From Hyphomicrobiales bacterium (lineage in GTDB: Bacteria > Pseudomonadota > Alphaproteobacteria > Rhizobiales > Rhizobiaceae), in assembly GCA_900466945.1 (NCBI GenBank), contig UBNV01000007.1, positions 62,001 through 126,000 on the forward strand: a stretch of DNA of 64,000 nt, written 5' to 3'. This document shows positions 39,584-64,000 of this stretch, one piece after another. The position numbers and the translations under genes were made by a program. The notes below the pieces were generated by a model. The model had not been told where the DNA came from, made no database searches, and saw only the letters and a list, made by a program, of their open reading frames with translations. How positions within the stretch are numbered: the first letter of the stretch is position 1; every line of letters begins with the position of its first letter.

Positions 39584-39905
39584 GCTTTTTCATTCCCATC
39601 GCTTTAGCATGGCACTTTAGGCGGGCAGGCAGCCGTTCGCGAAGAACGCCCTACGGTCACCCGAGAGAACAATCCCTTCGAGAATGCCGAGAATGCTCGA
39701 CCGAAGGAGGCAGCAACGGGGGGTATGAAGGGTTCAGACCTCATCCATTGGGAGTGGGGGCGTAGGCGCTCCTACCAAAAGTGACTAGGTCCCGACGCGG
39801 GGGAGAGAATTTACTCGCGACGGCATGCCGCGATGATGGGTCTCGGAAGACCTTAGCCCGGGAAGAACCCTGTTGGCGGTGGTACGACAATGATGGGACC
39901 GCTCC
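39584..39905. promoter_or_regulatory. Divergent promoter region of the exopolysaccharide locus
   Basis: The 322-base gap between the leftward GT4 gene and the rightward ExoF-like gene. It is GC-rich and contains a TCGCG...CGCGA inverted repeat (around 39815-39834) with an inner GGCATGCC palindrome, and purine-rich tracts, but I find no consensus sigma-70 pair I would stand behind. Regulation by the LuxR or Crp-type proteins encoded at 53.6-55.4 kb is possible. Confidence 0.4.
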
Positions 39906-41225: not shown

Positions 41226-41261
41226 TCGCCGGATCCCAAGACCTTGGAAAGGATAGAGCCC

Positions 41262-44524: not shown

Positions 44525-44617
44525 AGAGGGTCGGCGTCTCACGACCGCCTGCAGCAAGTGAGGCAGCTGCGGTCATCGGCTTTCGCGGATTATAGAAGCT
44601 CGCCGGGGCGCCGCCAG

Positions 44618-45487: not shown

Positions 45488-47039
45488 GCTCAACGCCATC
45501 TCCCCAGTTTGATGTGACAGCAGGCAGAAACCTGCGCGAGATCCTGTAGAGCAAAGCAAGCGTGGCGCCGTAGATCAGGCAACCGGCCGCCATCTGCAGA
45601 AAATTGACAACCAGCCCACTCTGGACCGAGAGCGTTCCCACCTCGCCCAAGAGCACGACGGCGCCGGCCATGGCAAAGGATCCCAGAAGGGGCATGAGAC
45701 AACCCTTCATGACACTCTGCCAGCGCACCGCGCCGTACCGACTTTGAAGCCAGGCTGAAACGAGGAAAGAAAAAATGGCGGCGAGCAGCTGTCCCGCAGC
45801 AGCGGCCACCACGCCCAGAGGCGAAAAAACCAGGATCAACCCCACGGCGACGAGACTGTTAACGAGGATCGCCGCTGGCACCTTGCGGATCGATCCGGCA
45901 AGCGACAGCAGCGGTTCGGTGACATAACCAGGCACGAGCAGAATCTGCTTGAGGGACAGCAGGCTGACCAAGATCGCGGCCGGGGCCCAGCCGGCGCCGA
46001 GCACGATCTGAACCAGCGTGCCGGACATCAAGGCAAGTCCAAGATAGATTGGGGCCGAAATCACCATGAGGAGGATGACGAACCGAGTGGCTTTCCGCCC
46101 GAGCGCGGGGGATGCCCCCTCCCCTCCGGGAGTGGCGCTGCCGTTCGCCATCGCGATCTTGCGGAATGAACTCCAGGCGATCTGCCGCGCCGGCTCGGCG
46201 ACGATATCGGTAAAGGCCGAAACGATGCGCTCCGCGGCACGGTAGTAACCGGCATCTGCGAGACCAAGAACGCTGCCGACCACAAGCGTTCCGGAGTAGG
46301 AGCGGATCAGCACGAGAGCTCGATTATAGGTGATATGCTTCGAGAACTCGAAGAGTTCACGAACGAAAGCCGCTGTGATCTTCAGTGCGGGAAGCCATTT
46401 CAGGACGGCAAGCGACGCCACCAAGCCTGCCACCTGGCTCACCAGCTTTCCCGCCGCCAAAGCATAGATGTTCCAGCCGTGGAGGAGGCCGTAGATGGCG
46501 ATGAGGGTGGCGGAGCATTCAGCGGCAATGCGAATAATGCTGAGCTCCTTCAGCCGAGCGTCCGCGATCAACATGCCCTCGCAGACGGACGAAAAGGGCG
46601 TCGGCAGCAACCACAAACTGAAGACGACGACAAGCCACGCTTCGGCTGTCATATCGAACTGCAGGTCCAGGATGGCTGCTGCGCTAAGCCCGACGGCGGT
46701 TGCGCCCATGCCCGCGATCAGGGAAATGGTGGCAATCTGATCGACGCGACCATCCTCATGCGTTGTCTTCATCACGAATTCCCGCCAGCCACCCTCGGCG
46801 ACGACGACAAGCAATGTGACCAGGGCTGCCGTATAGGAAAACAGCCCGAATTCTGCCGAGTTCAGAACACGTGCGGCGATGATGAACGTAGCCAGCTGGC
46901 TGACCTGCATCACGATCTTGGCAAGAAAGGTCCACATGGCGCTGCTGAACATTGTCTGGCCATCACGCCTCCAGCGCCCGAGAACGCCATCTCGGGAAAG
47001 CCACGTGCAAGCCTTTGCAAATATTCTTGTCATCGGCAT
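45468..47039 (-). CDS. Polysaccharide flippase, Wzx-like (copy 2)
   Basis: A 523-residue integral membrane protein of the MOP superfamily with about 12-14 helices. The first-helix motif is QLATFIIAARVLNSAEFGLFSYTAA (residues 47-71). It shares the fold but little sequence with the flippase at 33034. A locus with two flippases may make two polymers, or one may export a variant repeat unit. Its 3' end overlaps the methyltransferase gene. Confidence 0.88.
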   Translation of the reverse strand: MPMTRIFAKACTWLSRDGVLGRWRRDGQTMFSSAMWTFLAKIVMQVSQLATFIIAARVLNSAEFGLFSYTAALVTLLVVVAEGGWREFVMKTTHEDGRVDQIATISLIAGMGATAVGLSAAAILDLQFDMTAEAWLVVVFSLWLLPTPFSSVCEGMLIADARLKELSIIRIAAECSATLIAIYGLLHGWNIYALAAGKLVSQVAGLVASLAVLKWLPALKITAAFVRELFEFSKHITYNRALVLIRSYSGTLVVGSVLGLADAGYYRAAERIVSAFTDIVAEPARQIAWSSFRKIAMANGSATPGGEGASPALGRKATRFVILLMVISAPIYLGLALMSGTLVQIVLGAGWAPAAILVSLLSLKQILLVPGYVTEPLLSLAGSIRKVPAAILVNSLVAVGLILVFSPLGVVAAAAGQLLAAIFSFLVSAWLQSRYGAVRWQSVMKGCLMPLLGSFAMAGAVVLLGEVGTLSVQSGLVVNFLQMAAGCLIYGATLALLYRISRRFLPAVTSNWGDGVEHVANRV

Positions 47040-47343
47040 TCCTGCCTTATTCGTCTTCTACGATATGCACAGCGGGAATTCGTGTCGGCTTCCCTCTCGC
47101 GGCGTTCAGGATCGGGGATGACTTCAGACTTTGTTCACCATTCTTCGGTGTAATTCGGTTCTCATGGAAGCCCGGACGGCTAAGGCGCTCTCGTTACCGT
47201 CATCAGGTTTCTTCAATGCACAGCACTGGCGAGAGGCTTACCAATGAGCGAGATTGCTTTGAGACTCCAACTCAGATGGCTCGTCCTTCTCTTCTGCCTT
47301 AGCTTCTGGGTGGCCGTTGCCTATTGGGCATTCTGACCTCGCT
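47040..47343. other. Intergenic region holding one small ORF
   Basis: A 304-base gap between the leftward flippase (start 47039) and the leftward ExoY-like gene (stop 47344). It contains the plus-strand 30-codon ORF listed separately. No terminator-like hairpin was found. Confidence 0.4.
47244..47336 (+). CDS. Candidate small single-span membrane peptide (30 aa)
   Basis: A 30-codon ORF from ATG 47244 to TGA 47334-47336. After nine polar residues with two Arg it has one hydrophobic helix, WLVLLFCLSFWVAVAYWAF, and ends within it, the shape of known small membrane proteins. GAGAGG lies about 8 bases before the ATG. It reads opposite to both neighbours. I know of no family for it. Short ORFs with a helix do arise by chance, so this is a candidate only. 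Confidence 0.35.
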   Translation: MSEIALRLQLRWLVLLFCLSFWVAVAYWAF

Positions 47344-48018
47344 TCATAGGTCGTTTCGAGCAAAGAGGACGACTACGATCGTCTTCATAATGATCGCCAG
47401 ATCCGTACGTATCGAACATGTCTTGTAGTAGACGACATCGAACTGAACACGTTCTTCATATGACGTGTCTGGGCGCCTTGAGACTTGCCAAAGCCCTGTG
47501 AGCCCGGGCGTCATGGCAAGGTAGCAGTGCAGGTTCGGGCCGTATCGCTCGAGTTCCTCGGCGACGATCGGCCTTGGCCCCACGATGCTCATATCCCCCG
47601 CGAGGATGTTGAAAAGCTGAGGCAATTCGTCGAAGCTCGTGACCCTCAGAAGCCTGCCCAGCCAATGAATGCGCGGATCCTTCTTCAGCTTCTGACTATC
47701 CTCCCACTCTTTCCTCCGGTCTGGATCCGTCTCCAGTAGGTCGGCCAGGACCTTGTCGGCATCTTTCCGCATGCTGCGAAATTTCAGGCAGGAAAAGGAG
47801 CGGCCGCCGCGACCTATCCGCTTGTGGCGGAAGATGAGCGGCCGGCCATCGACGAGCAGCAGGGCAATGGCAATGACGACGAGGGCTGGGAGTAGAAATA
47901 GAGCTGCCAGCAGCGACAAGACAATGTCGAAGACACGCTTCATGGTCCGCCGCGAGACTTCCGGCGGCGACATGAGTTCAGCGTCACGTTGGGTAAAATT
48001 GTCTGAATACAACGACAT
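47344..48018 (-). CDS. Undecaprenyl-phosphate sugar phosphotransferase, ExoY-like
   Basis: A 224-residue bacterial sugar transferase, the same size as rhizobial ExoY (about 226). One N-terminal hydrophobic hairpin (DIVLSLLAALFLLPALVVIA) anchors it; KFRSMRKDAD, the DE pair in TSFDELPQLFNILAGDMS and GPRP plus PGLTGLWQVSRR are catalytic and conserved. It starts the repeat unit by placing a sugar-1-phosphate (galactose or glucose type) on undecaprenyl phosphate. AAAGGACAGGG precedes ATG 48018. It is the only initiating enzyme seen in the locus. Confidence 0.93.
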   Translation of the reverse strand: MSLYSDNFTQRDAELMSPPEVSRRTMKRVFDIVLSLLAALFLLPALVVIAIALLLVDGRPLIFRHKRIGRGGRSFSCLKFRSMRKDADKVLADLLETDPDRRKEWEDSQKLKKDPRIHWLGRLLRVTSFDELPQLFNILAGDMSIVGPRPIVAEELERYGPNLHCYLAMTPGLTGLWQVSRRPDTSYEERVQFDVVYYKTCSIRTDLAIIMKTIVVVLFARNDL

Positions 48019-48242
48019 TCCCTGTCCTTTCGATATCCCTAAGCTGCCTTTCAAACTGCGCGGAAGCAATTGATCCAGGGAGGCAGCGGGTAAACCGATA
48101 GGGGTAGATCCAACGTCGATCCTCGGCCGAAAAGGCGAGTGCAGCAGAAGGGCAGCATCGGTGCCGGCGTCGATTGTAACGGAGGATGAAGCGAGTGGTC
48201 ATACTGAAGGCCGGGAGTAGCTGTTTCCCGGTACAGCAACCG

Positions 48243-49625
48243 TCAGGCTGGCAAGGGCGCCGCTGCTCTGACACCACGGGGAACAGCACTCCGCAACCCT
48301 GCCATGACGAAGAAAATCAGGCCAAGATCCACGGTAGATCCGGAAATCAGCGCTCCGACGATAAGGCATAGACAGCCGTTTCGCGCTGCAAGCCCGACAT
48401 CGGCCTCATAGCTTCGCGGTGTCCCACGAGGCAGAAGAACACCGGTCAGGAGAAAGAGAAGGAAGAACAACGTTCCTGGCACCCCGACATTCGCCAGAAG
48501 GGCAACCGCAAAGGACGATGTTCTGACTGTGCCGAGACCGACCCCCAGACCATAGGAATCGAAGAAGTTCGATATCCCGGACGCGTTCCAGCCCCCTCGC
48601 TCGAGGGCAGACAAAGACGTCGGTTTACTGAGGATGGTGATGTCGACGAAGTCATAGACCTGACGGTAGACGTCATCGCTCAAGATCAGCACGAAGACGA
48701 AGAGCAGCGCTGCAAGCGGAAATGCCAGGACGACGGCGAGGCTGGCCCGCGTTCCGGTCGAGCCACCGCAGCGGAACAGGCTCGTGGCATAGAGGATAGC
48801 CAGACAGATCGGCAAGCCGGCGATCCCCCCGGAGGAAGTCGAGCGGACAATGAGGACGCAGGAGACGAGAAACAGAATCCCGCTTGCCTTGCCGTGACGG
48901 CCGCAAATCCACAATGTCCCACAATAGCCGACCACGGCCATGCTGGCGCCGGCGAAGGCCGAAGCCTCGGGCCATGAGCCGATAATGCGTCGCATCCCTG
49001 CAACCAATTCGTCGGCATGAAAGGTGTAGGAGGCGTTCCGGATATAAGCGAAAAGATCGACGAGAGGCGTGCCAGGACTGACCAGGTCCGCAAGGCCGAA
49101 GAAGACATTTGCCGCGCCGAAGCCCAGCAAGCCGATTACCACGTGCCGGAAGCCCTGTGGCGTTGACGCAATGGCAAGGATAAGGCTGAAGGTCACAAGA
49201 TCCGCAACGAGGTAGACGGCCTGGGTGAAATTGCCGCTGACCGGGCCCAGCGGAATGGTGCCGTTGATGCCGGCGCTTGCGTCTGCACCGAGTGGGACGA
49301 TGGTCATCGTGTCCTGTAACAAGCGCGGGGCGAAATAGCCGACAAAGACGCCATAGACCACCAGCAGAGTCAGCCAGACGAAGGGCTGAGACCTGAGAGC
49401 CCGGTCGATGACAAAGGTCGGATTGCCGTGCAGCCACAGCGTCGAGAGCAACAGAAAGCTTAGAAAGAAGTGGCCGGGCTGGATCCCCGTCGATCCGAAC
49501 AACAGTGCTGCAGCACCGCCGAGCACCGGAAAGAACGAGAAGGCGATGACGGTTGGTCCGCTGCCCCGCAAGAGGCACATAACACCGATCACCAATGCCA
49601 CGATGCCGATAGGTTCGATACCCAA
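48243..49625 (-). CDS. Polysaccharide polymerase/O-antigen ligase-like (Wzy-like) membrane protein
   Basis: A 460-residue protein with about 11-12 hydrophobic segments and a large periplasmic loop in the second half (residues 300-360), the Wzy/ExoQ-like layout. Sequence identity to any one family is not obvious to me; the call rests on topology and place among flippase and ExoY-like genes. The start is TTG 49625, with GAGGGGG five bases before it. It lies 46 bases downstream of the GT4 gene and 224 bases upstream of the sugar-phosphotransferase gene, all leftward. Confidence 0.75.
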   Translation of the reverse strand: MGIEPIGIVALVIGVMCLLRGSGPTVIAFSFFPVLGGAAALLFGSTGIQPGHFFLSFLLLSTLWLHGNPTFVIDRALRSQPFVWLTLLVVYGVFVGYFAPRLLQDTMTIVPLGADASAGINGTIPLGPVSGNFTQAVYLVADLVTFSLILAIASTPQGFRHVVIGLLGFGAANVFFGLADLVSPGTPLVDLFAYIRNASYTFHADELVAGMRRIIGSWPEASAFAGASMAVVGYCGTLWICGRHGKASGILFLVSCVLIVRSTSSGGIAGLPICLAILYATSLFRCGGSTGTRASLAVVLAFPLAALLFVFVLILSDDVYRQVYDFVDITILSKPTSLSALERGGWNASGISNFFDSYGLGVGLGTVRTSSFAVALLANVGVPGTLFFLLFLLTGVLLPRGTPRSYEADVGLAARNGCLCLIVGALISGSTVDLGLIFFVMAGLRSAVPRGVRAAAPLPA

Positions 49626-49671
49626 CCACGCCCCCTCGATTGCATTCGACGGCTTTCGGCCTTGAAGCCGC

Positions 49672-50847
49672 TCAGGCCGATCGTGCTATTGTGTCCAAAA
49701 CCTGTGCCTCCGCCGCCTTCGGATCCGTTCCCCCGCGAAGGATATCGTGGCTGATGCGGATATGATTGCGAATGTACTCATCCGCGCCCAGACCGCCACG
49801 CCCCATGCGGGTTTGCGCTCGGACTGCCATCTGGTGAGCCCGATCAGGCTGTTCTGCGACATCCACCAAAGCCGACAGCAATTGAGACTGGTCGCCAGGG
49901 GGAACGTAGCGGATCTCCTTGTCGGAGAAGTAATGTCGAAGCCCACCCGTGTCCGATGCGATAACGGGAACACCGGCCAATACGGCTTCCTCGATGGCGG
50001 TGATCCCACTTGCATGCAGGTTATCCTGCAGGGGCACGCAGACGACACTCGCAGCGGCGAACGCGCCGATCAGTTCGGCAGCCGATTTCGCCAACCGAAC
50101 GTCGACATTCGGAATGCCCGCGACCAGCCGCCTGGGCACGGTCCCCGAAAGGATGGTCAGCGAGAAATCGGGCCGCTGTTTCGCGACATCGACCAGTGTC
50201 TTCCAGTCCCGATGCCTGTCATTGCCGATCGCCAAGATCCGAAGGGGTTGCTGCAGAGGCGCTCGTGGCTGGACAATCGTCTCGGAAGGGATGCCGAAGG
50301 GAATGAAACGCAGATCCGCGTCGGGAAAATGCGATTTGGCAACCTGCATGTTCACCGGCGACAGGAATGTCAGAACGTCCACGCGCTTGATCAGTGCAGA
50401 ATAGAGATGACGTTTGATGACGGACAGCTTGCTCCAATGATCGAAGAGCCAGACCGTTTGTCCGATGATCTTCGTCTTAAAGCCTTTGAGCCTCGCCACG
50501 GCTGCAACTGCCAGATACTGGGATTCCGTATGGGTCCAGATAACGTCTGCAGTCTCGAGTTCTCTGCGCTGGCGCCAGGCATGCAAGAAGTCGAACCCCA
50601 GGAGAAGCCGCGCGCCATAGCGGAGTAATTTGCCGGCCATGGTCTCGGGATAGGCCTTGGAAAAGGACACCACGCAGCCGAGGTCGTTCGCCCGACCATA
50701 ACCATAGGGAGTGTCGTCATTGATTCCGACGAGGCTTCCATCTGCCCAACTCGCCTTCCAGCGATCGACGTCCTTGTTTTCGGCCAGATGCACAAAGACA
50801 CGCAACTCTCCACCGGATGTCTGACGATCGGCATGACTTGATGACAT
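49672..50847 (-). CDS. Glycosyltransferase, GT4 family
   Basis: A 391-residue GT-B fold enzyme. The acceptor half includes WTHTESQYLAVAAVARLKG and KTKIIGQTVWLFDHWSKL; the donor half has RILAIGNDRHRDWKTLVDVA and CVPLQDNLHASGITAIEEAV, a divergent E-x7-E block, and ASDTGGLRHYF. ATG 50847 is preferred over TTG 50865. It is the first gene of a leftward unit through the polymerase and is divergent from the GT8 gene. Confidence 0.85.
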   Translation of the reverse strand: MSSSHADRQTSGGELRVFVHLAENKDVDRWKASWADGSLVGINDDTPYGYGRANDLGCVVSFSKAYPETMAGKLLRYGARLLLGFDFLHAWRQRRELETADVIWTHTESQYLAVAAVARLKGFKTKIIGQTVWLFDHWSKLSVIKRHLYSALIKRVDVLTFLSPVNMQVAKSHFPDADLRFIPFGIPSETIVQPRAPLQQPLRILAIGNDRHRDWKTLVDVAKQRPDFSLTILSGTVPRRLVAGIPNVDVRLAKSAAELIGAFAAASVVCVPLQDNLHASGITAIEEAVLAGVPVIASDTGGLRHYFSDKEIRYVPPGDQSQLLSALVDVAEQPDRAHQMAVRAQTRMGRGGLGADEYIRNHIRISHDILRGGTDPKAAEAQVLDTIARSA

Positions 50848-51070
50848 CGAACCCACTTGAAGCAAGAATGGAACAAAGTCCCGACAGAACGAGTAAAACT
50901 CGGCTCAAGTCAGGGCCAACTGCACGTGACACCCATCTAAAATGAAGTCAGCACATTACCTTACCCATTTCTTAACACGCCCCACCGGGGCGGAAAAGTC
51001 TCCTATCGGTCATTGCGGGACCGCTGATTCACTTGTACTTTTTGATGAACGTGGTTGAGGGGATTTCGAC
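50848..51070. promoter_or_regulatory. Divergent promoter region
   Basis: About 220 bases between two divergent glycosyltransferase genes. The middle (50935-50985) is AT-richer than its surroundings and includes a TTAACA-rich tract, compatible with promoters in both directions. No certain -35/-10 pair was found. Confidence 0.35.
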
Positions 51071-53614: not shown

Positions 53615-54349
53615 CTACTTAAGCTTAAAAGCAACCTGCGTACGGTTGGTCACGTTGAGCTTTTTCATGATGTTTCGGATATGCACTTTCACCGTGCTTT
53701 CGCAGAGGTTCATCTCATAAGCGATGATCTTGTTCGCCTTGCCGCGGCGCAGCGCTTCTGCAACTTCGACTTCCCGCGGCGTAAAGCCCTCGTGCAGGTA
53801 GCTCGACCCCTTGACTACCGAGTTCAGTGCCTCGCGGTTTGCGAGCAGACTGCTTGCGGGAATGAAGACGCCACCCGCTCGCGCAAGTGAGATTGCTTCC
53901 GCCGCCACACTGATATTGACGCTCGTCGGGATATATCCGCGCGCACCGCAATCGATCGCCTTCAGTATATCTCCGAGATCGTCAGATTCTGCGATGACAA
54001 TCACGGGGCTCAGCTTGAAGGCTGCCGTAACATCCTCGATTTTTTCCGAGGCAACGGCCCCGTTGGGCTTGTTTCCCGTCAGAACAAGCAGAATTGCCGA
54101 CGGATCAGACGCAAACTGCCGCTTGCGCCATTCCTCGACGGATCCGACCGCCGCAATCTGCATCGTCGGATCATAGCTCGACAAGCTGCGAGACAGGCAT
54201 TCGCGATCCAGCACCCGGCTGTCGAGAATGAGAATGTACTCGCCTGACTTGGACCCGGCCGCCTGGCTGCTCGTCAGTGAACTTATGTAATCGATATCGG
54301 CCTTCGTGACTTTATTGGTATTGGTTGAGGTCGACGCATAGGTACCCAT
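53615..54349 (-). CDS. LuxR/NarL-type regulator with non-canonical receiver domain
   Basis: A 244-residue protein. After a low-complexity Thr/Ser/Asn start, residues 37-155 look like a receiver: LILDSRVLDRECLSRSL at the first strand keeps one acidic residue, but the third strand reads LLVLTGNKPNG with no phospho-accepting Asp, and the fifth ends GYIPTS where Lys is expected. Residues 180-240 are a GerE helix-turn-helix (FTPREVEVAEALRRGKANKI, STVKVHIRNIMKKLNV). It should bind DNA without phosphorylation by a histidine kinase. GAGGGG precedes ATG 54349. Its place suggests control of the polysaccharide genes. Confidence 0.88.
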   Translation of the reverse strand: MGTYASTSTNTNKVTKADIDYISSLTSSQAAGSKSGEYILILDSRVLDRECLSRSLSSYDPTMQIAAVGSVEEWRKRQFASDPSAILLVLTGNKPNGAVASEKIEDVTAAFKLSPVIVIAESDDLGDILKAIDCGARGYIPTSVNISVAAEAISLARAGGVFIPASSLLANREALNSVVKGSSYLHEGFTPREVEVAEALRRGKANKIIAYEMNLCESTVKVHIRNIMKKLNVTNRTQVAFKLK

Positions 54350-54620
54350 TTCAAACCCCTCAATTCTGCATTTTTCGAGCCGCCGAGCGTCTCGAAGACA
54401 AAATAAAACCCCGCCCCCGAAAGGAGCTCTCCTGCTAGATCTCAATTTTCCTAAGATTACAGGGGTAAGTTTTCACGGTTCTATTAGGACTGCATTAACC
54501 TAAGTTAAGTCACTAACAAAGAAGCCGTAATTCTCCCATTTATGGTCGATGCAAGCGGATTTTGGATGGCTTTTGGGTCGACAACAGCGAATTAGAGACC
54601 GACTGCCTGCTGCGAGACTG
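54350..54620. promoter_or_regulatory. Upstream region of the LuxR-type gene
   Basis: 271 bases between the LuxR-type gene and the Crp-family gene, both leftward. At 54495-54508 lies TTAACCTAAGTTAA, a perfect 5-bp inverted repeat around four bases, in an AT-rich tract about 145 bases before the LuxR-type start. It could be an operator. No confident -35/-10 pair. Confidence 0.4.
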
Positions 54621-55358
54621 TCAAGGCTGCTCTATTTCCTGCAAGCTCGTGGTGTCGTGGCTGCTACCCGTCAGGTAACTTGGGTCGAAATCGACCAGTT
54701 CCATCAGTTTCCGCCGGTTGAGAAACTCGACAATGCCGTTGCGGAAGGAAAGCAGACCGCCTAACCGCATTTCCTTGAGCACGCGATTGACATGAACGGT
54801 CGACAGTCCCAGGGCATCTCCGATTTCCGACTGCTTCAGTGGGCACTCGAATCCGTTCAGGCCAGGGCGGGAAGGATTGCCCGCGCGAACGGCCAGCTCC
54901 AGTAACAGGTGACCGGTGCGACCGAAAGCATCTCGCCGCCCGATACTGGCAAGTCGTTCGGCGATGCGCGCGTGGCGTTTCATTAGTTCGATGGTCATGA
55001 TCAGCGGCAGTTGCGAGCCACCGTCGCTCCCGGCACCGGACATCTGACCCTGGAATTCATAACAGGTCACGTCGGAGACGGCATGAACGGTCTCGTGCGA
55101 CATGCTCGTAGAAGCGGACGAGAGAACGTCCCCATGCAGGAAGAAATCTGTCACGATACGTGTGCCGTTCGACATCGTCTTGCTCGAGATCGTCCAGCCG
55201 CTCTCTATGAACAGGACACGTGACAAGTGGCTATCGACGTCGAAAATCGTTGTTCCAGCGGGATAGCTGCGCAGGCTGGCGCGGGTAGGCCGGGCACCGG
55301 GCTTCCGGTGTTCTGAGGCCAATGCTTGACGCATGTTAAGATGATCATCCAGCCGCAT
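54621..55358 (-). CDS. Crp/Fnr-family transcriptional regulator
   Basis: A 245-residue protein: cyclic-nucleotide-binding-like jelly roll at residues 30-130 (YPAGTTIFDVDSHLSRVLFI, LHGDVLSS) and a Crp-type helix-turn-helix at 170-230 (LKQSEIGDALGLSTVHVNRV). It has no N-terminal Cys cluster, so it is not an Fe-S Fnr, and the residues that hold cAMP are not evident. This resembles small Crp regulators often found in rhizobial genomes. It sits between the polysaccharide locus and the NRPS/PKS genes and could serve either. ATG 55358 is chosen over 55385. Confidence 0.87.
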   Translation of the reverse strand: MRLDDHLNMRQALASEHRKPGARPTRASLRSYPAGTTIFDVDSHLSRVLFIESGWTISSKTMSNGTRIVTDFFLHGDVLSSASTSMSHETVHAVSDVTCYEFQGQMSGAGSDGGSQLPLIMTIELMKRHARIAERLASIGRRDAFGRTGHLLLELAVRAGNPSRPGLNGFECPLKQSEIGDALGLSTVHVNRVLKEMRLGGLLSFRNGIVEFLNRRKLMELVDFDPSYLTGSSHDTTSLQEIEQP

Positions 55359-56050
55359 GATATCGCCTATTTGTCCGCACCCCACGGACTAACAATTTTT
55401 TAACACATTTACTTCCCAGCGTAATCAGATTCATTCCGAATTTTGCCAAAGTGATTACCAGTTTAGGTTAACCGAAAGCCCGAAAGAATGTTCCGTGGCG
55501 CAAGCGGCAGGCGGAAGAGTGCTTCGCACCCTGCCATTCTTCAAAGAATTGTTCGTCATTAAAAAAAGCAGAAACCTATACCCTTCATATAGGCCATTGA
55601 GTACAAATTCTACCAGGTTAACTGTCCAAAAGTGGTAGGAATCTGGATTAGATACTTCTTTTGGACTAGGTCTTGCAGCAGTTTAGCGTCGAGGTTTAAG
55701 GGCGAAGGGGGAGCATCGCCCGACAGCGTCGAGGTTCATCTCTGTTAACATGCGCATCCGTCCGACCACACGCTTGACGCCCCGGACCGCGCGCTTGGCC
55801 CCTGGACTTTTACTCACTATTCACAGTCTCCGCCTTTCCGGCGGATGGTTCGAGGGCGCGTTGCACCTCACTGGCCAAACGGATTAGACCGAGGCTAGTC
55901 AGCCGACCCTTTTCACCCCAATGACCAGATGTTCATTTCACGGTCCCGTGAAATTCTAAAGCTTGGGGAATGCCTTGCCGAACGAGCACTCGGCCGCACG
56001 GCCGGGTGACCGGATGGCAGCATAGGCAATCGAATGGAGCGGGACCACAG
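55359..56050. promoter_or_regulatory. Long upstream region of the NRPS/PKS genes
   Basis: A 692-base gap with no supported ORF. It holds two inverted repeats: GTCCAAAAG (55624-55632) / CTTTTGGAC (55658-55666) separated by 25 bases, and ATTTCACGG / CCGTGAAAT (55935-55954) separated by two bases. The second lies about 97 bases before the adenylation-protein start. The part at 55560-55700 is markedly AT-richer than the surroundings. Likely contains the promoter and operators for the cluster. Confidence 0.5.
55935..55954. promoter_or_regulatory. Candidate operator palindrome upstream of NRPS gene
   Basis: Perfect inverted repeat with 9-bp arms (ATTTCACGG and CCGTGAAAT) around TC. It looks like a dimeric repressor or activator site; the factor is unknown. 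Short spacing and symmetry argue against chance and there is no T-run, so it is not a terminator. Confidence 0.5.
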
Positions 56051-57970
56051 ATGACGGAATTTCAGGTCGTGGGGGATAAAGGACAGGCGGCGGGCGGCAG
56101 CGGCCGCCGACCGACCCGCTACAACAAGAGCCAGAGCGTGCCGGAGGTCGTCAGGGATCATGCCAACGCATTCCCGGATACCGTGGCCATCATTTGCGAT
56201 GATGCCCGTCTGACGTATGGCGAACTAGATGCGCTCTCCGACGGACTCGCCACGTACCTCGTGTCCTGCGGCGTCGAAAAAGGCGATATCATATGCCTGC
56301 TTGTCCCGCGTGCGTTGGAAACAGTCGTTGCCAAACTCGCGATACTGAAGGCCGGGGCAGGATATCTTCCGCTCGATCCGGCTTATCCGGCAGACCACCT
56401 TCAATATGTTCTGGACGAATGCCGCCCCAAGGTCGTCTTCACCACCAGCAATAGCGGTTCGGAGCTAGGTGCCCTCGGCCATCCTGGCAGCCGCATCGTC
56501 GACCTGCATACGGTTCTGCGAAGCCTGGGACCTGGTGATCCGTCCCGCTTGCCGAGCATCGGCGGATCGGACCTCGCCTATGTCATGTACACATCCGGCT
56601 CGACAGGTCGGCCGAAAGGCGTGGCGGTCCCACACAGCGGCATCACTCGCCTGGTGCTCGATCAGAATTTCATCGAATTCCGCCCGGGAGACATGGTCCT
56701 CCATTCGACGACGATTTCCTTCGATGCATCGACCGTGGATGTCTGGGGCGCGCTCCTGAACGGATCAACCCTCGTGATCATGTCGAAGGCGAACTTCTCG
56801 CTGACCGACATGCGGGATTTGATCAGGGTCCATGACATCACATTCGTCAACTTCACGACGGGGCTCTTTAACATTTTCGCCGACCATGCGGATGAACCCA
56901 TGCCCAGCCTGCGCCATGCGATCTTCGGCGGCGAAGTCGCATCAGCTCCGCATGTGAAGCGCTTTGTTGCTGCCCATCCAGCCTGCCTTCTGACCAACGT
57001 ATACGGTCCGACGGAAGCGGCGTGCATCGCAACGACCTTCACAGTCCCCGCAGATTTCGACGCATCGGAACTGCCGATCGGCAGACCAATCGCCCATACC
57101 GATGTCATCTTGGTCGATGACGATCTTCAGGTTGTGGCACCGGGCATCGAAGGCCAGATCGCCATCGCCGGTGACGGGCTGGCCCTTGGATATTTCAATC
57201 GACCCGACCTGACAGCCGAACGGTTCGTCTCGATTAAAACCGTCGAAGGCACGACGCGTTGTTACCTGACAGGTGACCTCGCCGTCATGGACGAGAACGG
57301 GACATTTCATTTCCGGGGACGCCGCGACCGCCAAGTCAAGATCAACGGCAAGCGCATCGAACTGGAGGAGATCGAGACGGCTCTGCGCCGTCATCCACGC
57401 CTCGCCGAAGCGGTGGTGGAATGCCGGGAGACCGGCGGCGTGAAGCGCATTATCGCCTATCTCCGCCCCCGCGAAATACAGGACATGACCAATGCAAACC
57501 TCGTTCCAGCGGTCATGGAGCGGCTGCGCAACAGTCTGCCGGCCTACATGATCCCGAGCACAGCGCTCGTCATGCCGGATTTCCCCCTGACACACGCCGG
57601 AAAGATTGACAGGGCACGCTTGCCCCTGCCTCCGATCGAGGACATCCAGCCAGTGGCCATCCGCAGTCGCAGCGAGGAAATTCTCATGCGGCTCTGGCGC
57701 GACGCCCTCGGGCTGGAGGTCGTTCCGGCCGACCGGAACTTCTTTGACCTCGGCGGCACGTCTCTCCAGCTGATGCGGGTCCATGCAGGCCTCGAGCTTG
57801 AACTCGGCCAGCGATGCGAGGTTCTGGCTCTCTTCAAGCATCCCACAGTGCGCGACATGGCACGCTTTCTGGACGGCCGCGAGCAGATGCCGTCTCGGGC
57901 CACAGTGGCCGACCAGCGAGCCGCCCTGCAGCGTAAGACGATGGCCCAGTTCCGCCGGAGCACCCCATGA
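56051..57970 (+). CDS. NRPS-type loading protein: adenylation domain plus carrier domain
   Basis: A 639-residue protein. The adenylation domain (residues 30-540) shows core motifs A3 VMYTSGSTGRPKG (Tyr177 starts it), A4 TISFDASTVDVWGALLNG, A5 NVYGPTEAA, A7 YLTGDLA, A8 GRRDRQVKINGKRIELEEIE and A10 LTHAGKIDR. Asp in FDAS at the pocket mouth points to an alpha-amino acid; by eye the ten pocket residues read DAVNIGVCIK, which matches no code I know. A carrier domain follows with phosphopantetheine Ser571 in LGGTSLQL. No condensation domain precedes it, so it starts a chain. Its stop overlaps the next start (ATGA). GGAGCGGGA precedes ATG 56051. Confidence 0.93.
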   Translation: MTEFQVVGDKGQAAGGSGRRPTRYNKSQSVPEVVRDHANAFPDTVAIICDDARLTYGELDALSDGLATYLVSCGVEKGDIICLLVPRALETVVAKLAILKAGAGYLPLDPAYPADHLQYVLDECRPKVVFTTSNSGSELGALGHPGSRIVDLHTVLRSLGPGDPSRLPSIGGSDLAYVMYTSGSTGRPKGVAVPHSGITRLVLDQNFIEFRPGDMVLHSTTISFDASTVDVWGALLNGSTLVIMSKANFSLTDMRDLIRVHDITFVNFTTGLFNIFADHADEPMPSLRHAIFGGEVASAPHVKRFVAAHPACLLTNVYGPTEAACIATTFTVPADFDASELPIGRPIAHTDVILVDDDLQVVAPGIEGQIAIAGDGLALGYFNRPDLTAERFVSIKTVEGTTRCYLTGDLAVMDENGTFHFRGRRDRQVKINGKRIELEEIETALRRHPRLAEAVVECRETGGVKRIIAYLRPREIQDMTNANLVPAVMERLRNSLPAYMIPSTALVMPDFPLTHAGKIDRARLPLPPIEDIQPVAIRSRSEEILMRLWRDALGLEVVPADRNFFDLGGTSLQLMRVHAGLELELGQRCEVLALFKHPTVRDMARFLDGREQMPSRATVADQRAALQRKTMAQFRRSTP

Positions 57971-60900
57971 ACGTCGACACCCGGCCAAACGGCCTTAATC
58001 CGGAGACCGACGCCACAGGTGATCCTGATCTGCCAGGCGGCATTGCCATTGTGGGAATGTCCGGTCGGTTTCCGGACGCGCCTGATATCGCCGCACTCTG
58101 GGACCTCGTCAAACGTGGCGGCAACGCCTTTCGCATCTTCGCTACCGACGAGCTGGAGGACGGCTTCACAGACGAGGAACGCTCATCCCCCGAATTCGTC
58201 GCATGCCGCCCACATCTCGCGGACGTAGACCGCTTCGACGCCGAGTTCTTCGGCATGTTCGCCCGCGAGGCGGCCCTGACGGATCCCCAGCATCGTGTCT
58301 TCCTTGAAATCTGCTGGGAAGCGCTCGAAGGCGCGGGCTACGATCCCTACAAGAGCCCCGGCCTTGTCGGCGTCTTTGCTGGCTGCTCGATGCCGACCTA
58401 TCTTCTGAACAACGTTCTTGCCGACCGCGCCGCCGTGGAGGAGGTCACCTCCAACTACCAGATCGGATGCTACAACCAGCTGATCGGCTCTCTCGGCGAT
58501 GCCCTTGCCACGCGGATCGCCTACAAGTTCAATCTCCGCGGCCCCGCCTTCACCCTGCAGTCGGCTTGTTCCACATCCCTGCTCGCAGTGTCCCAGGCCT
58601 GCCAGAACCTTCTGACCTACAGTTGCGACATGGCGCTGGCGGGCGGCGTCTCCATCACCATTCCTCAGAAGCGTGGCTATATCTACCAGGAAGGCGGGAT
58701 GGTTTCCCGCGACGGGATCTGCCGCCCATTCGATGCCGATGCTTCCGGCACCGTCTTCGGCAGCGGCGCAGGCGTGGTTCTCCTGAAGCGTCTGGAAGAC
58801 GCCGTAGAAGATGGCGACCTGATTTACGCAACGATCCGTGGCTACGCCGTAAACAATGACGGCTCCGACAAGATCGGCTTTACCGCCCCGAGTGCAGAAG
58901 GACAGGCTGATGCCATCAGCGCCGCGATCGCCCATGCCGGCATCGACCCGGCAACCATCGGCTATATAGAATGCCATGGAACCGCGACACCTCTCGGCGA
59001 TCCCATCGAGTTCTCCGGTCTGAAAGAAGCCTTCAATGGCGCACATGACCAGAAGGAAACATGCGCGCTCGGATCGTTGAAAGGGTCAATCGGGCATCTC
59101 GATGCGGCCGCTGGCGTGGCTGGGCTGATCAAGGCCACGCTCGCCTTGCACCATCGCAAGATCCCGGCGATGCCGAACTACGAAAAACCCAATCCCCGGA
59201 TCGATCTGGGCAACACCCGGTTCTACATTCCACGCCAGACAACGGACTGGTTTTCTGGCTCAACGCCGCGTCGCGCGGGCGTAAGCGCCTTCGGCGTCGG
59301 TGGAACCAACATCCATGTTGTGCTGGAGGAGGCCCCGAAACGCGCCGATACGCGCGAGCAGCTTTCCGGTCCCATGATCCTGCCGCTTTCCGCCCGGTCG
59401 GAGCCTGCACTGTCGGAGATGCGCAAAAACCTTGCAGATCGCCTTGAAAAGAAAGGCGACATTTCCCTGCAGGCGGTCGCGGCCACGCTTCAGCAGGGCC
59501 GCCACGCATTCAAAACGAGGACAGCCATTTCGGCAGCCACGGTTGATGAAGCTATCATGGCCCTTAGACGGGACGGCTTGGTAACGGCGACCGCCGAAGA
59601 TCAACCGCCGCCGATCGTCTTCATGTTCCCCGGCCAGGGCGCGCAATATGTCGGCATGGGAGCAGCCCTCTATGACGGCGAACCGGAGTTTGCCCGCTGG
59701 ATCGATCGCGGCACCGAACTCCTGAAGATGCGTTTCGGCATCGATCTCAAGGAATACATCTGCCATGCCGGCGCCGTCAGCAGCGCGATGGCGGCGGAGC
59801 AACGGGAAACCCGGATCGCGCAGCCCTGCCTCTACCTCGTGGAATACGCTCTCGCTCAGCTCTGGATGAGCCGTGGTCTGCGGCCAACAGCCATGATCGG
59901 GCATAGCGTCGGCGAGTTCGTCGCGGCCACGCTTGCGAATGTCATTTCGTTCGAGGATGCCTTGACCCTGGTGGCGACCCGCGGGCAACTGATGCAGGAT
60001 CAGTCGCCTGGAGCTATGCTGTCCGTTCGTGCAGCACCGGAGACGCTGCGCGAGCACTTGATGGGCCATGCGGAGATCGCCGCGATCAACGCGCCCAAGC
60101 TTTGCGTGGCCTCAGGTCCTCTTGAAGACATCGAGGCCCTGTGTTTCAGGCTTGAGAAGGCCGGCATTGCATTCAGCCGGCTGCATACTTCGCATGCCTT
60201 CCATTCCGCGATGATGGAGCCCTGCATCGACGCACTGCGTGATGTCGCATCGAAGGTGACATACGGTCGCGCCACCATCCCCTACATCTCCTGCGTGACG
60301 GGGGACTGGCAGACTGACGCGCTGGGATCCTCGCCGGACTACTGGTCGCGGCATTGCCGTGAACCCGTCCGTTTCTCCGATGGCCTCGTTACATTGTGCA
60401 AGGACCAGAGCCCGATCCTTCTCGAAGTAGGCCCTGGCCGAACCCTATCTGTCTTCGCAGCTCAAACCATCGGCCGGGACCAGTTGCCGGCCATCGTGCA
60501 GTCTCTTCCAGAGCATGACAACGCCTCTGCGGCACGGCATTTTGTTGCCGACGCCCATGGTCGCCTCTGGATGGCGGGCAGCGATCTTCCCTGGCCCGGC
60601 CTGCCCAACGAAACCCGAAAAACCGTCTCGCTGCCGACCTACCCTTTCCAGCGGCAGCGACACTGGATCGACGCCCCGCCGTCCGTGCGGCGCGCACACG
60701 CGGCCCAACCCGCACAACAAACAGAACCCGAGAGTATCAAGAGCGAGCCATTCGCAAGAGACGAGGTGGAAACCATGAACGCCATCAGCACCATCACGGT
60801 CGCCGATCGCACTCCGGAACTGGAGACCGCGCTGATCACCCTTTTGAGCGAGATGTCCGGCGAACCGATTGATTCAGGCAACGTCAACGACAGCTTTCTC

Positions 60901-63900
60901 GAACTCGGCTTCGATTCCCTTTTCATCGGCCAGTTCGCTCAGAAAATCGACAAGCAGTATCGCGTGAAGATCTCGTTCCGCGAACTGCTTGGCAACATCC
61001 CGTCGATTGCGGCCCTGGCGAAATATCTGGACCAGGCCCTGCCGCCCGAGCCGGCAAAGGTGGAGGTAGCGTTTAGCCCAGCGCCCGCAGCCGCGGTGCA
61101 GCCTGTTGCTGCCCAAACAGCCGCGGCCCCGAAGGCGCCGCAGATCTCGGCACCACTCCCGGCACCACTGCCAGGCATCGCAGGCGGCATCCAGACAGTG
61201 CAGCATGGCAATATCCCGGCCAGCACAGGCCTCGAAGCTCTGCTGCAATCGCAGCTATCGCTCACGCAGAACCTCTTTGCCCAACAATTCCAGCTTCTTC
61301 AGGGCGCAGCATTGGCGCCAGCGGCCGTTGTGGCGACGGCACCGCCGGCATTGGTCCCGCCGATTGTTGCCCCGGTCACCGTGGCCGCGCCACAAGCCAC
61401 GGTGACACCGCCGACGTTTCAGGACAGCGGCCCCGCCGAGGAGATCGGCGGAGAACGTTATCGCCACTACCAGCAGGGAGGATCGAAGGCCAAGACGGAC
61501 ATCACACCTGAGAAGGAAAACTTCATCAACGATCTGGTCCTGGCTTATTCCAACCGCAACAAGCGGTCCAAGGAATACACCCAGACGCATCGAGCCCGCC
61601 TCGCAGATCCCCGCACCGCCTCCGGCTTCCGGGCTGAATGGAAGGAAATGATCTTCCCCGTGGTTTGCGATCGCTCCAAGGGCGCCCGCATCTGGGATAT
61701 CGACGGCCACGAATACATCGACCTGGTCAACGGTTTCGGCCAGACGGCTTTCGGCCATGCGCCGGACTTCGTCGTCGACGCCATGAAGATCCAGATGGAC
61801 GATGGTTTTGCCATCGGCCCCCAGACGCCACTTGCCGGCGAGGTCGCCGAACTCTTCGGCGCCATGACCGGCCACGAACGCGTTACCTTCTGCAACACGG
61901 GATCCGAAGCTGTTATGGCAGCCATGCGCCTCGCCCGTGCCGTCACCGGCCGCGACAGAATCGTCGTATTCGCTAACGACTATCATGGCCAGTTCGACGA
62001 AGTTCTTGTGAAAGGTCGCGCCAAGGCCAAGGATCCGATTGCCCTGCCGATCGCGGCCGGCATCCCGTCCGGCTCGGTCGGCAACATGGTTGTGCTGCCC
62101 TATGGTGCACCGGAAAGCCTAGACTGGATCAGGGCGAATGCCGAGGATCTCGCGGCAGTGATCATAGAACCGATCCAGAGCCGGCATCCCGAATTGCGGC
62201 CGCGCGATTTCGTGGCCGAATTGCGCAAGATAGCCGATACATCGGGCTGCGCGCTCGTCTTCGACGAAGTGGTCACCGGATTCCGCGTCGATCCCGGCGG
62301 CGTTCAGGCCATCTGGGGCATCAAGGGTGACATGGCGACGTACGGCAAAGTCGTCGGCGGCGGCATGCCGATCGGTGTCCTGGCGGGAAGCAGCCGCTTC
62401 ATGGATGCCCTGGACGGTGGGCATTGGAATTATGGCGACGACTCCGTGCCGAATGTGGTCCCGACCTTCTTCGCCGGCACATTCGTCCGCCATCCCGTGG
62501 TTCTGGCAGCGGCCCGCGCCGTGCTTCACCACATCAAGGGCGAAGGCTCCGCCCTCTACGACCGTGTGGCGCGTCGCACCGAAGCCCTGGTCGACGAGAT
62601 CAATTCGGAACTCGCCAAGCGCGGCGTCCCGCCCTGCCTGCGGGGCTACAAGAGCTGGTTCGTCACGGACTTCAGCAGCCAGGATCCCCTCGGCGGCCTG
62701 CTCTACCCCTATCTGCGCATGAACGGCATCCATATCCAGGATGGCTATCCCTGCTTCCTGACGACAGCCCATACCGAAGAGGATTTCAAGACGATCGCGC
62801 GTGCGTTTCGCGATGCGATCGACGCGCTGCAAGTGGTCGGCATCTTCGCCCCCAAGGTCGAGAGCGAACTGACAGGCCCGGCGCCTGCACCTGACCGTGG
62901 CCCCAAGCCGACCCTGCATCAGGCAGTCCGCGCCGAAAGCGCCGCTCTGACGGAAGCACAATCCGAGATCTGGCTGGCAGCGCAGGCAGGTGACGAAGCA
63001 TCATGCTCGTTCAACGAGTCCCTCTCGCTTGAACTGAACGGTTCCCTGGACCGCAAGGCCTTCCTTGCCGCCATCGATGCGGTCATTGCCCGGCATGACG
63101 CCCTGCACATCCGTTTCGACCGAAACGGCGAACGTTTTCGTTTCATCTCCGACTTCAAGCTTCCGGTCGATGCCGTGGACCTGACCGGAGAGGCTGATGC
63201 AAAAGCCGCTCTCGACGACTTGATCGAGACCGACGCGAAGACCCCGTTCGACCTGGTGGAAGGTCCATTGGCGCGAGCCTATCTCGTGGCGCTCGCCCCG
63301 GACCGTCATGTGCTGGTCTTCACCGCGCATCACATCGTCTGCGACGGCTGGTCGCTGAACGTCATCATCAACGAACTCGCCGCGATCTATTCGGCGACCT
63401 TGAAGGCGGAACCGCTCTCGCTCGAGCCGGCCATGTCTTTCGCCGATTATGCCGATAACCATGCGCCAAGCGCGGATGTCAGCACCACGACCTCGCAGTT
63501 TTGGCATGAACAGTTCAGGGAACTGCCCGAACTCCCGGACATGCCTTTTGATCGCCCATACCCCGATCGGCGCAGCTATGCCGGCGGGACTTGCACCGTT
63601 ATCGTGCCCCCGGAAATCACCACTGCGGTTCGGAAACGTGGCGCGCGGACGGGGGCAACGATGTTCTCGACCATGCTGGCGGCCCTCCAGGTCATGCTCG
63701 CGCGCCTGTCCGGCCAGAATGATGTCGTCATCGCGGTGCCGTCTGCAGGCCAGAGCCTGCTCGACGAACGTATTCTCGTCGGACACTGCGTGAACCTGCT
63801 CCCGATCCGCCAGACTGTCGAGCTGGCAAAACCTTTCGAAGATCATCTTAAGACTACGCAACAACTGGTCCTGAAAGCCTTCGAGCACCAGGACTACACT

Positions 63901-64000
63901 TATGGCACCCTTGTAAAGACCCTGGGGGTCAAGCGCGACCCGCGCCGGCTGCCGCTGACGGGCATCCAGTTCAACCTCGAACGCATCGCAGCGAACGCGG
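57967..64000 (+). CDS. Hybrid PKS-NRPS: KS-AT-ACP-aminotransferase-C (3' end outside window)
   Basis: The frame is open to the window end (2,011 residues seen). Ketosynthase, residues 24-455: Cys201 (SACSTS), His337 (ECHGTATPLGDP) and His377 (GSIGHLDAAAG) complete the triad. Acyltransferase, about 550-860: FPGQGAQYVGMG, Ser647 (GHSVGEFV) and HAFH at 743, the malonyl-CoA type. ACP Ser984 (GFDSL). An Ala/Pro-rich linker (1040-1180) precedes a class III PLP aminotransferase, 1210-1620, with Lys1461 (TYGKVVGGGMPIG). A condensation domain from about 1655 has HHIVCDGWS at 1788. No ketoreductase is present, so the beta-keto is aminated. Same order as the iturin/mycosubtilin type, but primed by an amino-acid adenylation protein. 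Confidence 0.95.
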   Translation, partial: MNVDTRPNGLNPETDATGDPDLPGGIAIVGMSGRFPDAPDIAALWDLVKRGGNAFRIFATDELEDGFTDEERSSPEFVACRPHLADVDRFDAEFFGMFAREAALTDPQHRVFLEICWEALEGAGYDPYKSPGLVGVFAGCSMPTYLLNNVLADRAAVEEVTSNYQIGCYNQLIGSLGDALATRIAYKFNLRGPAFTLQSACSTSLLAVSQACQNLLTYSCDMALAGGVSITIPQKRGYIYQEGGMVSRDGICRPFDADASGTVFGSGAGVVLLKRLEDAVEDGDLIYATIRGYAVNNDGSDKIGFTAPSAEGQADAISAAIAHAGIDPATIGYIECHGTATPLGDPIEFSGLKEAFNGAHDQKETCALGSLKGSIGHLDAAAGVAGLIKATLALHHRKIPAMPNYEKPNPRIDLGNTRFYIPRQTTDWFSGSTPRRAGVSAFGVGGTNIHVVLEEAPKRADTREQLSGPMILPLSARSEPALSEMRKNLADRLEKKGDISLQAVAATLQQGRHAFKTRTAISAATVDEAIMALRRDGLVTATAEDQPPPIVFMFPGQGAQYVGMGAALYDGEPEFARWIDRGTELLKMRFGIDLKEYICHAGAVSSAMAAEQRETRIAQPCLYLVEYALAQLWMSRGLRPTAMIGHSVGEFVAATLANVISFEDALTLVATRGQLMQDQSPGAMLSVRAAPETLREHLMGHAEIAAINAPKLCVASGPLEDIEALCFRLEKAGIAFSRLHTSHAFHSAMMEPCIDALRDVASKVTYGRATIPYISCVTGDWQTDALGSSPDYWSRHCREPVRFSDGLVTLCKDQSPILLEVGPGRTLSVFAAQTIGRDQLPAIVQSLPEHDNASAARHFVADAHGRLWMAGSDLPWPGLPNETRKTVSLPTYPFQRQRHWIDAPPSVRRAHAAQPAQQTEPESIKSEPFARDEVETMNAISTITVADRTPELETALITLLSEMSGEPIDSGNVNDSFLELGFDSLFIGQFAQKIDKQYRVKISFRELLGNIPSIAALAKYLDQALPPEPAKVEVAFSPAPAAAVQPVAAQTAAAPKAPQISAPLPAPLPGIAGGIQTVQHGNIPASTGLEALLQSQLSLTQNLFAQQFQLLQGAALAPAAVVATAPPALVPPIVAPVTVAAPQATVTPPTFQDSGPAEEIGGERYRHYQQGGSKAKTDITPEKENFINDLVLAYSNRNKRSKEYTQTHRARLADPRTASGFRAEWKEMIFPVVCDRSKGARIWDIDGHEYIDLVNGFGQTAFGHAPDFVVDAMKIQMDDGFAIGPQTPLAGEVAELFGAMTGHERVTFCNTGSEAVMAAMRLARAVTGRDRIVVFANDYHGQFDEVLVKGRAKAKDPIALPIAAGIPSGSVGNMVVLPYGAPESLDWIRANAEDLAAVIIEPIQSRHPELRPRDFVAELRKIADTSGCALVFDEVVTGFRVDPGGVQAIWGIKGDMATYGKVVGGGMPIGVLAGSSRFMDALDGGHWNYGDDSVPNVVPTFFAGTFVRHPVVLAAARAVLHHIKGEGSALYDRVARRTEALVDEINSELAKRGVPPCLRGYKSWFVTDFSSQDPLGGLLYPYLRMNGIHIQDGYPCFLTTAHTEEDFKTIARAFRDAIDALQVVGIFAPKVESELTGPAPAPDRGPKPTLHQAVRAESAALTEAQSEIWLAAQAGDEASCSFNESLSLELNGSLDRKAFLAAIDAVIARHDALHIRFDRNGERFRFISDFKLPVDAVDLTGEADAKAALDDLIETDAKTPFDLVEGPLARAYLVALAPDRHVLVFTAHHIVCDGWSLNVIINELAAIYSATLKAEPLSLEPAMSFADYADNHAPSADVSTTTSQFWHEQFRELPELPDMPFDRPYPDRRSYAGGTCTVIVPPEITTAVRKRGARTGATMFSTMLAALQVMLARLSGQNDVVIAVPSAGQSLLDERILVGHCVNLLPIRQTVELAKPFEDHLKTTQQLVLKAFEHQDYTYGTLVKTLGVKRDPRRLPLTGIQFNLERIAANA

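Follow-up and report, generated by a model that had tools for sequence, protein, structure and literature searches.

The synthases of mycosubtilin, iturin and bacillomycin D are primed with a fatty acid through an AMP-ligase domain, the puwainaphycin and microcystin (McyE) types use a module of ketosynthase (KS), acyltransferase (AT), acyl carrier protein (ACP), aminotransferase (AMT) and condensation (C) domains, and in units of the statine type an amino acid held on a thiolation (T) domain is proposed to prime the KS. Here we analyse a 64,000-nucleotide stretch of DNA from a member of the Hyphomicrobiales (contig UBNV01000007.1, positions 62,001-126,000; hereafter the window), the right-hand end of which encodes a free-standing adenylation-thiolation (A-T) protein, gene 1, followed by a hybrid polyketide synthase-nonribosomal peptide synthetase (PKS-NRPS), gene 2, with a KS-AT-ACP-AMT-C core. 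PMC3547906 describes the AMT of MycA as acting in cis, with glutamine as amine source and a beta-aminothioester as product, and reports a proposal that valine on a T domain primes the KS in the zeamine system (Zmn16-18). According to a preprint (PMC13252402), starters of the puwainaphycin and McyE types are supplied by a fatty acyl-AMP ligase (FAAL) or are aromatic acids. The same text describes Athmu-type cyanobacterial beta-amino polyketides, in which an A domain selects the starter and the PKS line aminates later; the predicted substrate there is an alpha-keto acid, which a ketoreductase (KR) of the loading module reduces to an alpha-hydroxy starter. PMC5563371 deals with other clusters.

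We conclude with good confidence that the assembly line of the window combines an A-T starter, malonyl extension, amination and coupling to glycine, and that it belongs with neighbouring exopolysaccharide (EPS) genes in one inherited unit. What we observed directly is the order of the domains, the integrity of the catalytic residues, the in-frame joining of A-T to KS, the phylogeny, and the linkage and joint inheritance of the genes. Reading each chemical step from the protein families, the most likely product unit is a 3,4-diamino acid joined to glycine; its residues are assigned from A-domain codes alone, and any tie of the product to the EPS is one that we infer.

Domain organization and catalytic residues

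Pfam found AMP-binding and PP-binding in gene 1 and, in the single open frame of gene 2 that runs past the window end, KS, AT, PP-binding, Aminotran_3 and Condensation (Table 1). With the sequence to the right, gene 2 encodes 2723 residues in the order KS-AT-ACP-AMT-C-A-T. A class III aminotransferase lies between ACP and C in this one chain, and the catalytic residues of KS, AT and AMT are intact. The AT carries the motifs GHSVGE and HAFHS, which we take to be of the malonyl type. No KR, dehydratase or enoylreductase family was matched by Pfam in gene 2, so that the KR which acts on the beta-keto group in statine-type lines was not found, and the gap from AT to ACP (about 110-120 residues; family median 112) is too short to leave space for one.

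These results bear out the initial annotation, made from the letters of the window, which had given the order as A and peptidyl carrier protein, then KS-AT(malonyl)-ACP-AMT-C, with no KR. Its start for gene 1, at 56051, is probably correct, as the open reading frames (ORFs) of congener loci L018, L021 and L022 align from about this methionine and GGAG lies 11 bases upstream of the start codon. The outline stands; the glycine module, the odd terminal module and, apart from its bare sequence, the EPS setting are additions that lay beyond its view. Genes 1 and 2 overlap by 4 bp, an overlap found in 38/52 adjacent gene pairs of any kind when counted from mechanical ORF starts.

Residue conservation was counted in alignments of the window and its relatives, near-duplicates included. 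The KS Cys, His, Lys and His, all present in gene 2, are kept in 101/101 aligned domains, and the AT retains the Ser of GHS in 102/102 and HAFH in 101/102. The lysine that holds pyridoxal phosphate (PLP) in the AMT, also present in gene 2, is kept in 103/103, three other AMT positions checked are kept in 102-103/103, and the C domain after the AMT retains HHxxxDG in all 69 same-frame cases (69/69). The conservation of the AMT residues, together with the retention of the AMT in the module across several phyla, argues against silent amination, in which the AMT would be inactive on the chain and the beta-keto group would persist and react with the alpha-amine, forming a tetramic-acid-like ring or a related one. 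Beta-keto aminoacyl chains can in general cyclise, and AMT activity is here a prediction; even so, we judge this outcome very unlikely.

Priming of the ketosynthase

The priming count covered 99 loci, with four near-duplicates dropped and 15 FAAL-type, siderophore-like or other synthase loci set aside; three of the 99 have no upstream DNA, and 96 were assessed for the partner of the KS. A-T is joined in frame ahead of the KS in 39/96 and is encoded beside the KS gene in 48/96, including one locus with a shortened A domain (L068). Among the free A-T-type proteins, 47/48 have a net charge of at least +3 over their last 20 residues. Gene 1 ends in PF13193, a domain of the amino-acid type; the end domain of FAAL-type partners is PF23024. 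None of the neighbouring ORFs read or scanned was noticed to encode a FAAL. The upstream partner is accordingly an amino-acid-type A-T protein and not a FAAL-type ligase with an ACP that would bring a fatty acyl starter.

Phylogeny points the same way. The KS tree and the AMT tree both set the amino-acid-primed rows apart from the FAAL-type rows, with 100/99 support for the separation in a careful KS tree of 27 rows. Forcing the window KS in with the FAAL rows costs 293 log units (approximately unbiased test, p-AU 1.9e-06), in a comparison whose rows were named after a first tree had been seen. Rows were labelled FAAL-type where the annotation indicates it (L142, bacillomycin D; L143, fatty acyl-AMP ligase) or where PF23024 accompanies AMP-binding (L055, L059, L143 and L145, with L056 below the cut-off). 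KS rows of siderophore-like loci and of L123 fall outside the main group. Membership of the iturin, mycosubtilin or puwainaphycin sub-type is rejected because of the KS and AMT phylogeny.

Amino-acid priming of the KS is well supported by the fusions and adjacency of A-T and KS, by Asp235 of the A domain, by the trees and by the kept catalytic residues. The initial annotation had proposed it, and the proposal held at each point checked: the window KS lies outside the fatty-acid-type clade, and the upstream docking partner is the A-T protein itself, with no other starter implied.

A different arrangement can be drawn up from the terminal C-T-TE protein of the window's cluster (TE, thioesterase), which has no A domain, and from the fatty starters that iturin- and puwainaphycin-type AMT synthases use: the KS would be acylated in trans, by a fatty acyl chain or some other group, and gene 1 would instead load the A-less T domain of the last protein. 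We consider this highly improbable in view of the 39 loci with an in-frame fusion, the position of KS and AMT outside the FAAL-type group and the lack of a noticed FAAL gene nearby. Moreover, A-T precedes the KS even where the last module has an A domain of its own, the code of which is odd in L078 and L085 and of the Gly type in L092 and L105. That gene 1 serves the last module alone is rejected because A-T is fused in frame to the KS elsewhere.

Some findings do count against this reading. The last module could still be served in trans by the A domain of gene 1 (A1), and in 9/96 loci no clear A-T adjoins the KS: three have T-KS without A, two a larger NRPS upstream, one T only and two nothing found, and the ninth is L123. 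There the protein upstream has a cut A fragment, T and a sulfotransferase domain, and the KS falls outside the amino-acid-primed group in the KS tree.

Two starter arrangements may be described for themselves. L123:1-1545 belongs to a Pedosphaera metagenome-assembled genome, in which a T and sulfotransferase protein, its start cut by the record end, stands before the KS gene. L073, L106 and L135 encode T-KS-AT-T-AMT-C-A-T proteins, in which no A domain precedes the first T. This starter T must receive its residue in trans or from another source.

Adenylation codes and proposed chemistry

Codes were read at the GrsA positions, with the anchor confirmed against 1AMU. Asp235 and Lys517 are present in the gene 1 A domain, and Asp235 is kept in 84/84 start A domains read, which speaks against activation of a non-amino acid. 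An A domain of this kind, placed with its T immediately ahead of the KS, is the arrangement of an amino-acid-primed PKS module. In print, DILQLGMIWK corresponds to Gly (PMC12283262), DAFWLGGTFK to Val and DVQFVAQVVK to Pro (PMC9113097), and DFWNIGMVHK to Thr (PMC3547906). The 84 start codes comprise 33 of the Val type, 7 of the Thr type and 3 Pro-like ones (DVQF-type), the rest being mixed. The code of A1 in the window, DAVNIGVCIK, is common to 8 loci after duplicate removal. Its sister codes, DAFLLGAVIK among them, hint at descent from a branched-chain specificity; on the debit side, DAVNIGVCIK matched no code in the open-licence literature, and its residue could not be assigned. The A domain that follows AMT-C has a Gly-type code in 59/72, and that of the window's cluster is DILQLGMIWK, likewise Gly-type.

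We propose the following route. Gene 1 would activate an alpha-amino acid and tether it to its own T domain. From there the KS of gene 2 would accept the aminoacyl group and condense it with malonyl loaded by the AT. Since no KR is present, the beta-keto group would be left for the AMT, which would swap it for an amine to give a 3,4-diamino-acyl-ACP. The C domain would then couple this chain to the Gly held by the T domain that follows, and release of the product would fall to the C-T-TE protein.

Terminal module and fourth protein

The C-T-TE protein (851 residues; P0004, L002:10136-12691) is encoded downstream of gene 2. Among relatives, the C domain before the TE frequently carries another residue at the second His position: in counts that include many close relatives, C-T-TE proteins have Q in 28, H in 18, N in 1 and Y in 1 (1 unread), C-TE proteins without T have A in 5, S in 4, H in 2 and Q in 2, and C-A-T-TE proteins have H in 9 and Q in 3 (1 unread). 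The protein of the window's cluster has HQTCFDG in its C domain, Cys (GLCVNG) at the expected TE Ser and no A domain. These three features make it probable that the last module has ceased to add a residue; its task may now be release or transfer of the chain. The frequent absence of the second His and the TE Cys together suggest a repurposed release module. A near relative, L018, keeps HH in its terminal C domain, so the state of this domain changes easily.

Next follow a 560-residue protein with a GINT1_N match, the fourth of the cluster, and, on the opposite strand, a phosphopantetheinyl transferase. We modelled a relative of the fourth protein, that of L062 (L062:17123-18751), with a mean predicted local distance difference test (pLDDT) score of 81 for the whole protein and 75 for the N-terminal half alone. 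Residues 282-534 of the model, its C-terminal half, form a beta-propeller that resembles mannoside phosphorylases and GH43/GH62-type enzymes most closely (Z 21.3, root-mean-square deviation (rmsd) 2.8 over 234 residues). The N-terminal half has a formyltransferase fold, matching Fmt (3q0i) at Z 15.4 (rmsd 2.6 over 175 residues) and the sugar N-formyltransferases ArnA, WbkC and WlaRD at Z 14.3, 13.7 and 12.4, respectively. The catalytic residues of the sugar N-formyltransferase family are Asn, His and Asp; an Asn-x-His-like motif is not apparent at the expected place in the sequence alignment. To our knowledge, a formyltransferase fold and a GH130/GH43-like beta-propeller in one protein are not known as a characterised enzyme, and NCBIfam gave no name to this protein or to the Wzy-like protein of the EPS locus. 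The model fits a sugar-facing role; a shared fold as such shows no function.

Linkage to exopolysaccharide genes

EPS genes are among the flanking genes common to distant loci. With a distance of at most 30 kb, Bac_transf was found in each of the congeners searched (15/15, where chance would give 0.61; a 16th carrier, which lies on a short contig, was not among them), in 9/12 further carriers (0.43 expected), in 31/49 named genomes (1.54 expected; highest of 200,000 simulations, 12) and in 0/7 FAAL-type or other AMT carriers, the expected counts assuming independent loci, which related genomes are not. The 49 named genomes are 80 named loci minus 30 (Rhizobiaceae, short contigs and near copies) and minus L084. 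The 7 comparison genomes are 7 of 12 phylum AMT matches outside the amino-acid-primed kind, with the architecture of G354 not read. The three misses among the 12 are G675, at a contig end, and G502 and G543, with Bac_transf at 35 kb and 87 kb. Poly_export, searched in the misses and the comparison carriers only, lies within 30 kb in 4/18 named Bac_transf misses and 0/7 comparison carriers.

Inheritance agrees with position. Among 60 congeners, the EPS flippase Wzx occurs in 15/16 carriers and 0/44 non-carriers (p 3e-13), with 39-41% identity in four carriers, and the Wzy-like gene occurs in 16/16 carriers and 8/44 non-carriers. The assembly line and the neighbouring EPS genes form one inherited unit, which hints that the product belongs to the outer sugar coat. 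We tentatively propose, at a little under an even chance, that the hybrid synthetase makes a beta,gamma-diamino-acyl-glycine that is then transferred onto the EPS of the same locus. The altered terminal C domain and TE, and in rhizobia also the protein with formyltransferase fold and beta-propeller, would form a sugar-facing transfer apparatus. If this is right, such PKS-NRPS-dependent decoration would give the surface polymer positive charge or metal-binding diamine groups.

The case is not one-sided. No product of the assembly line is known, 18/49 named genomes have no Bac_transf within 30 kb (several of them on short contigs), Wzx is missing from one carrier, G017, and linkage and co-inheritance of one locus do not prove joint function, the more so as related genomes are not independent. 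A free small molecule is quite possible, if short of probable: a secreted diamino-acyl-Gly dipeptide or ring, serving as metal chelator, signal or antibiotic, that has only its regulation in common with the EPS genes and is not attached to sugar at any stage. The presence of the C-T-TE protein and the named genomes without Bac_transf nearby would suit such a product, and vicinal diamines can in general bind metals. It accounts less readily for an EPS linkage that recurs in distant taxa with differing gene arrangements, for one EPS flippase that tracks the cluster among 60 congeners, and for a fourth protein that unites two folds known from sugar enzymes.

In Rhizobium sp. SL42, the place that corresponds to the regulators between the EPS genes and gene 1 (Table 1) is annotated with a response regulator and a Crp/Fnr regulator. 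Two further proteins occur near clusters of relatives. A 475-residue PAF-acetylhydrolase-like protein, with an N-terminus that is membrane-like by appearance, lies beside the cluster at L050:16676-18103 and in 14 other loci. A cupin/JmjC-like protein of 321 residues, a possible hydroxylase, lies near it at L139:3053-4018 and in 8 other loci; the L139 gene ends just before the fused A-T-KS gene.

Table 1. Features of the assembly line and the adjoining EPS locus in window coordinates
Feature	Position	Strand	Basis
Gene 1, free-standing A-T starter protein	56051..57970	+	Pfam PF00501/PF13193/PF00550
Gene 1 A domain	about 56153-57604	+	
Gene 1 T domain	about 57683-57871	+	
Gene 1 C-terminal tail, basic (QRAALQRKTMAQFRRSTP)		+	
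Gene 2, KS-AT-ACP-AMT-C-[A-T]	57967..64000, continues to equivalent position 66138	+	Pfam, full translation P0003
KS domain	58042..59331	+	PF00109/PF02801; placed by trees in the amino-acid-primed group
AT domain, malonyl-type motif	59617..60474	+	PF00698
ACP domain	60829..61029	+	PF00550
AMT domain, class III PLP aminotransferase	61564..62856	+	PF00202, between PF00550 and PF00668
C domain opening the Gly module, motif HHIVCDG	62938..64000	+	PF00668
EPS locus, directly upstream of the cluster	38408..50865	mixed	Pfam
Glycosyltransferase (GT)	38408-39583	-	Pfam
Poly_export	39906-41225	+	Pfam
Wzz/AAA	41244-43580	+	Pfam
GT2-like	43577-44524	+	below Pfam cut-off
ORF without Pfam match	44618-45559		
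Wzx flippase	45468-47039	-	Pfam
Bac_transf	47344-48069	-	Pfam
Wzy-like	48243-49625	-	no Pfam match, named by appearance
GT	49672-50865	-	Pfam
LuxR-type and Crp/Fnr-type regulators, between EPS genes and gene 1	53615..55385	-	named by appearance

Distribution

The megasynthase occurs in 16/60 congeners, its own genome counted. The own locus and 14 congener loci hold five genes in the same order, and L023 lies on a short contig. In L030 (G047) gene 2 is split within the C domain into overlapping frames of 1864 and 864 residues in an otherwise complete cluster, which marks either a broken copy or a sequencing error. A 247-genome sample of the bacterial family yielded the own genome and 5 others with the megasynthase; a seventh match is a stand-alone AMT. 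In a 398-genome sample of the phylum, 20 have an AMT match at E <= 1e-90, namely the own genome and 7 of the amino-acid-primed kind and 12 others, with architectures read for the 7 and for 7/12 others. A scan of named genomes confirmed 573 stretches; the best 80 include Rhizobium, Gemmobacter, Paraburkholderia, Reyranella, Novosphingobium, Nevskia, Lysobacter, Dyella, Rhodanobacter, Flavobacteriaceae, Acidobacteriota and Haloferula (Verrucomicrobiota), among others.

Amino-acid-primed aminating logic is widespread, in at least four phyla, and indicates that aminating PKS-NRPS enzymes with amino-acid starters form a large branch. The initial annotation had called this priming unusual, which is fair beside the characterised enzymes considered here but not for genomes at large.

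A stand-alone AMT (frames of 473-523 residues, 43-45% identical) sits in a different NRPS-PKS cluster in congeners and a family member (L032-L034, L047) and is present in 8/60 congeners. AMTs with about 41-43% identity also occur on Agrobacterium vitis and A. tumefaciens plasmids.

Comparison with known systems

In the open-licence literature, which is not all that is in print, we found no description of an amino-acid-primed KS-AT-ACP-AMT-C family. If the predicted chemistry is correct, the family would make 3,4-diamino acids, the amino analogues of statine, accessible by genetic means. That the family is often sited in EPS loci joins two seldom-linked fields, assembly-line natural products and bacterial surface polysaccharides, and makes it a testable question whether an NRPS-PKS product decorates EPS.

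Like the window, the mycosubtilin, iturin and bacillomycin D synthases (MycA, BamA) have the order KS-ACP-AMT-C with a class III AMT. BamA differs in having its AT on a separate protein and its KS and AMT in a separate tree group, and ligase-like fragments lie ahead of its KS. The puwainaphycin and McyE types share KS-AT-ACP-AMT-C and differ in the starter; similar modules on Planktothrix and Nostoc plasmids, where products are not named, also fall in the separate KS and AMT group. Gene 1 differs from the Athmu type in being A-T only, in having no KR and in keeping Asp235. In the zeamine PKS and in statine-type units a KR gives a hydroxy group, whereas in the window the AMT is expected to give an amine. 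The closest known systems are thus AMT synthases with fatty, aromatic or alpha-keto acid starters on the one side and amino-acid-primed modules with a KR on the other; the assembly line of the window pairs an amino-acid primer with an AMT, a combination that we did not find described and that would be more novel still if its product is bound to EPS.

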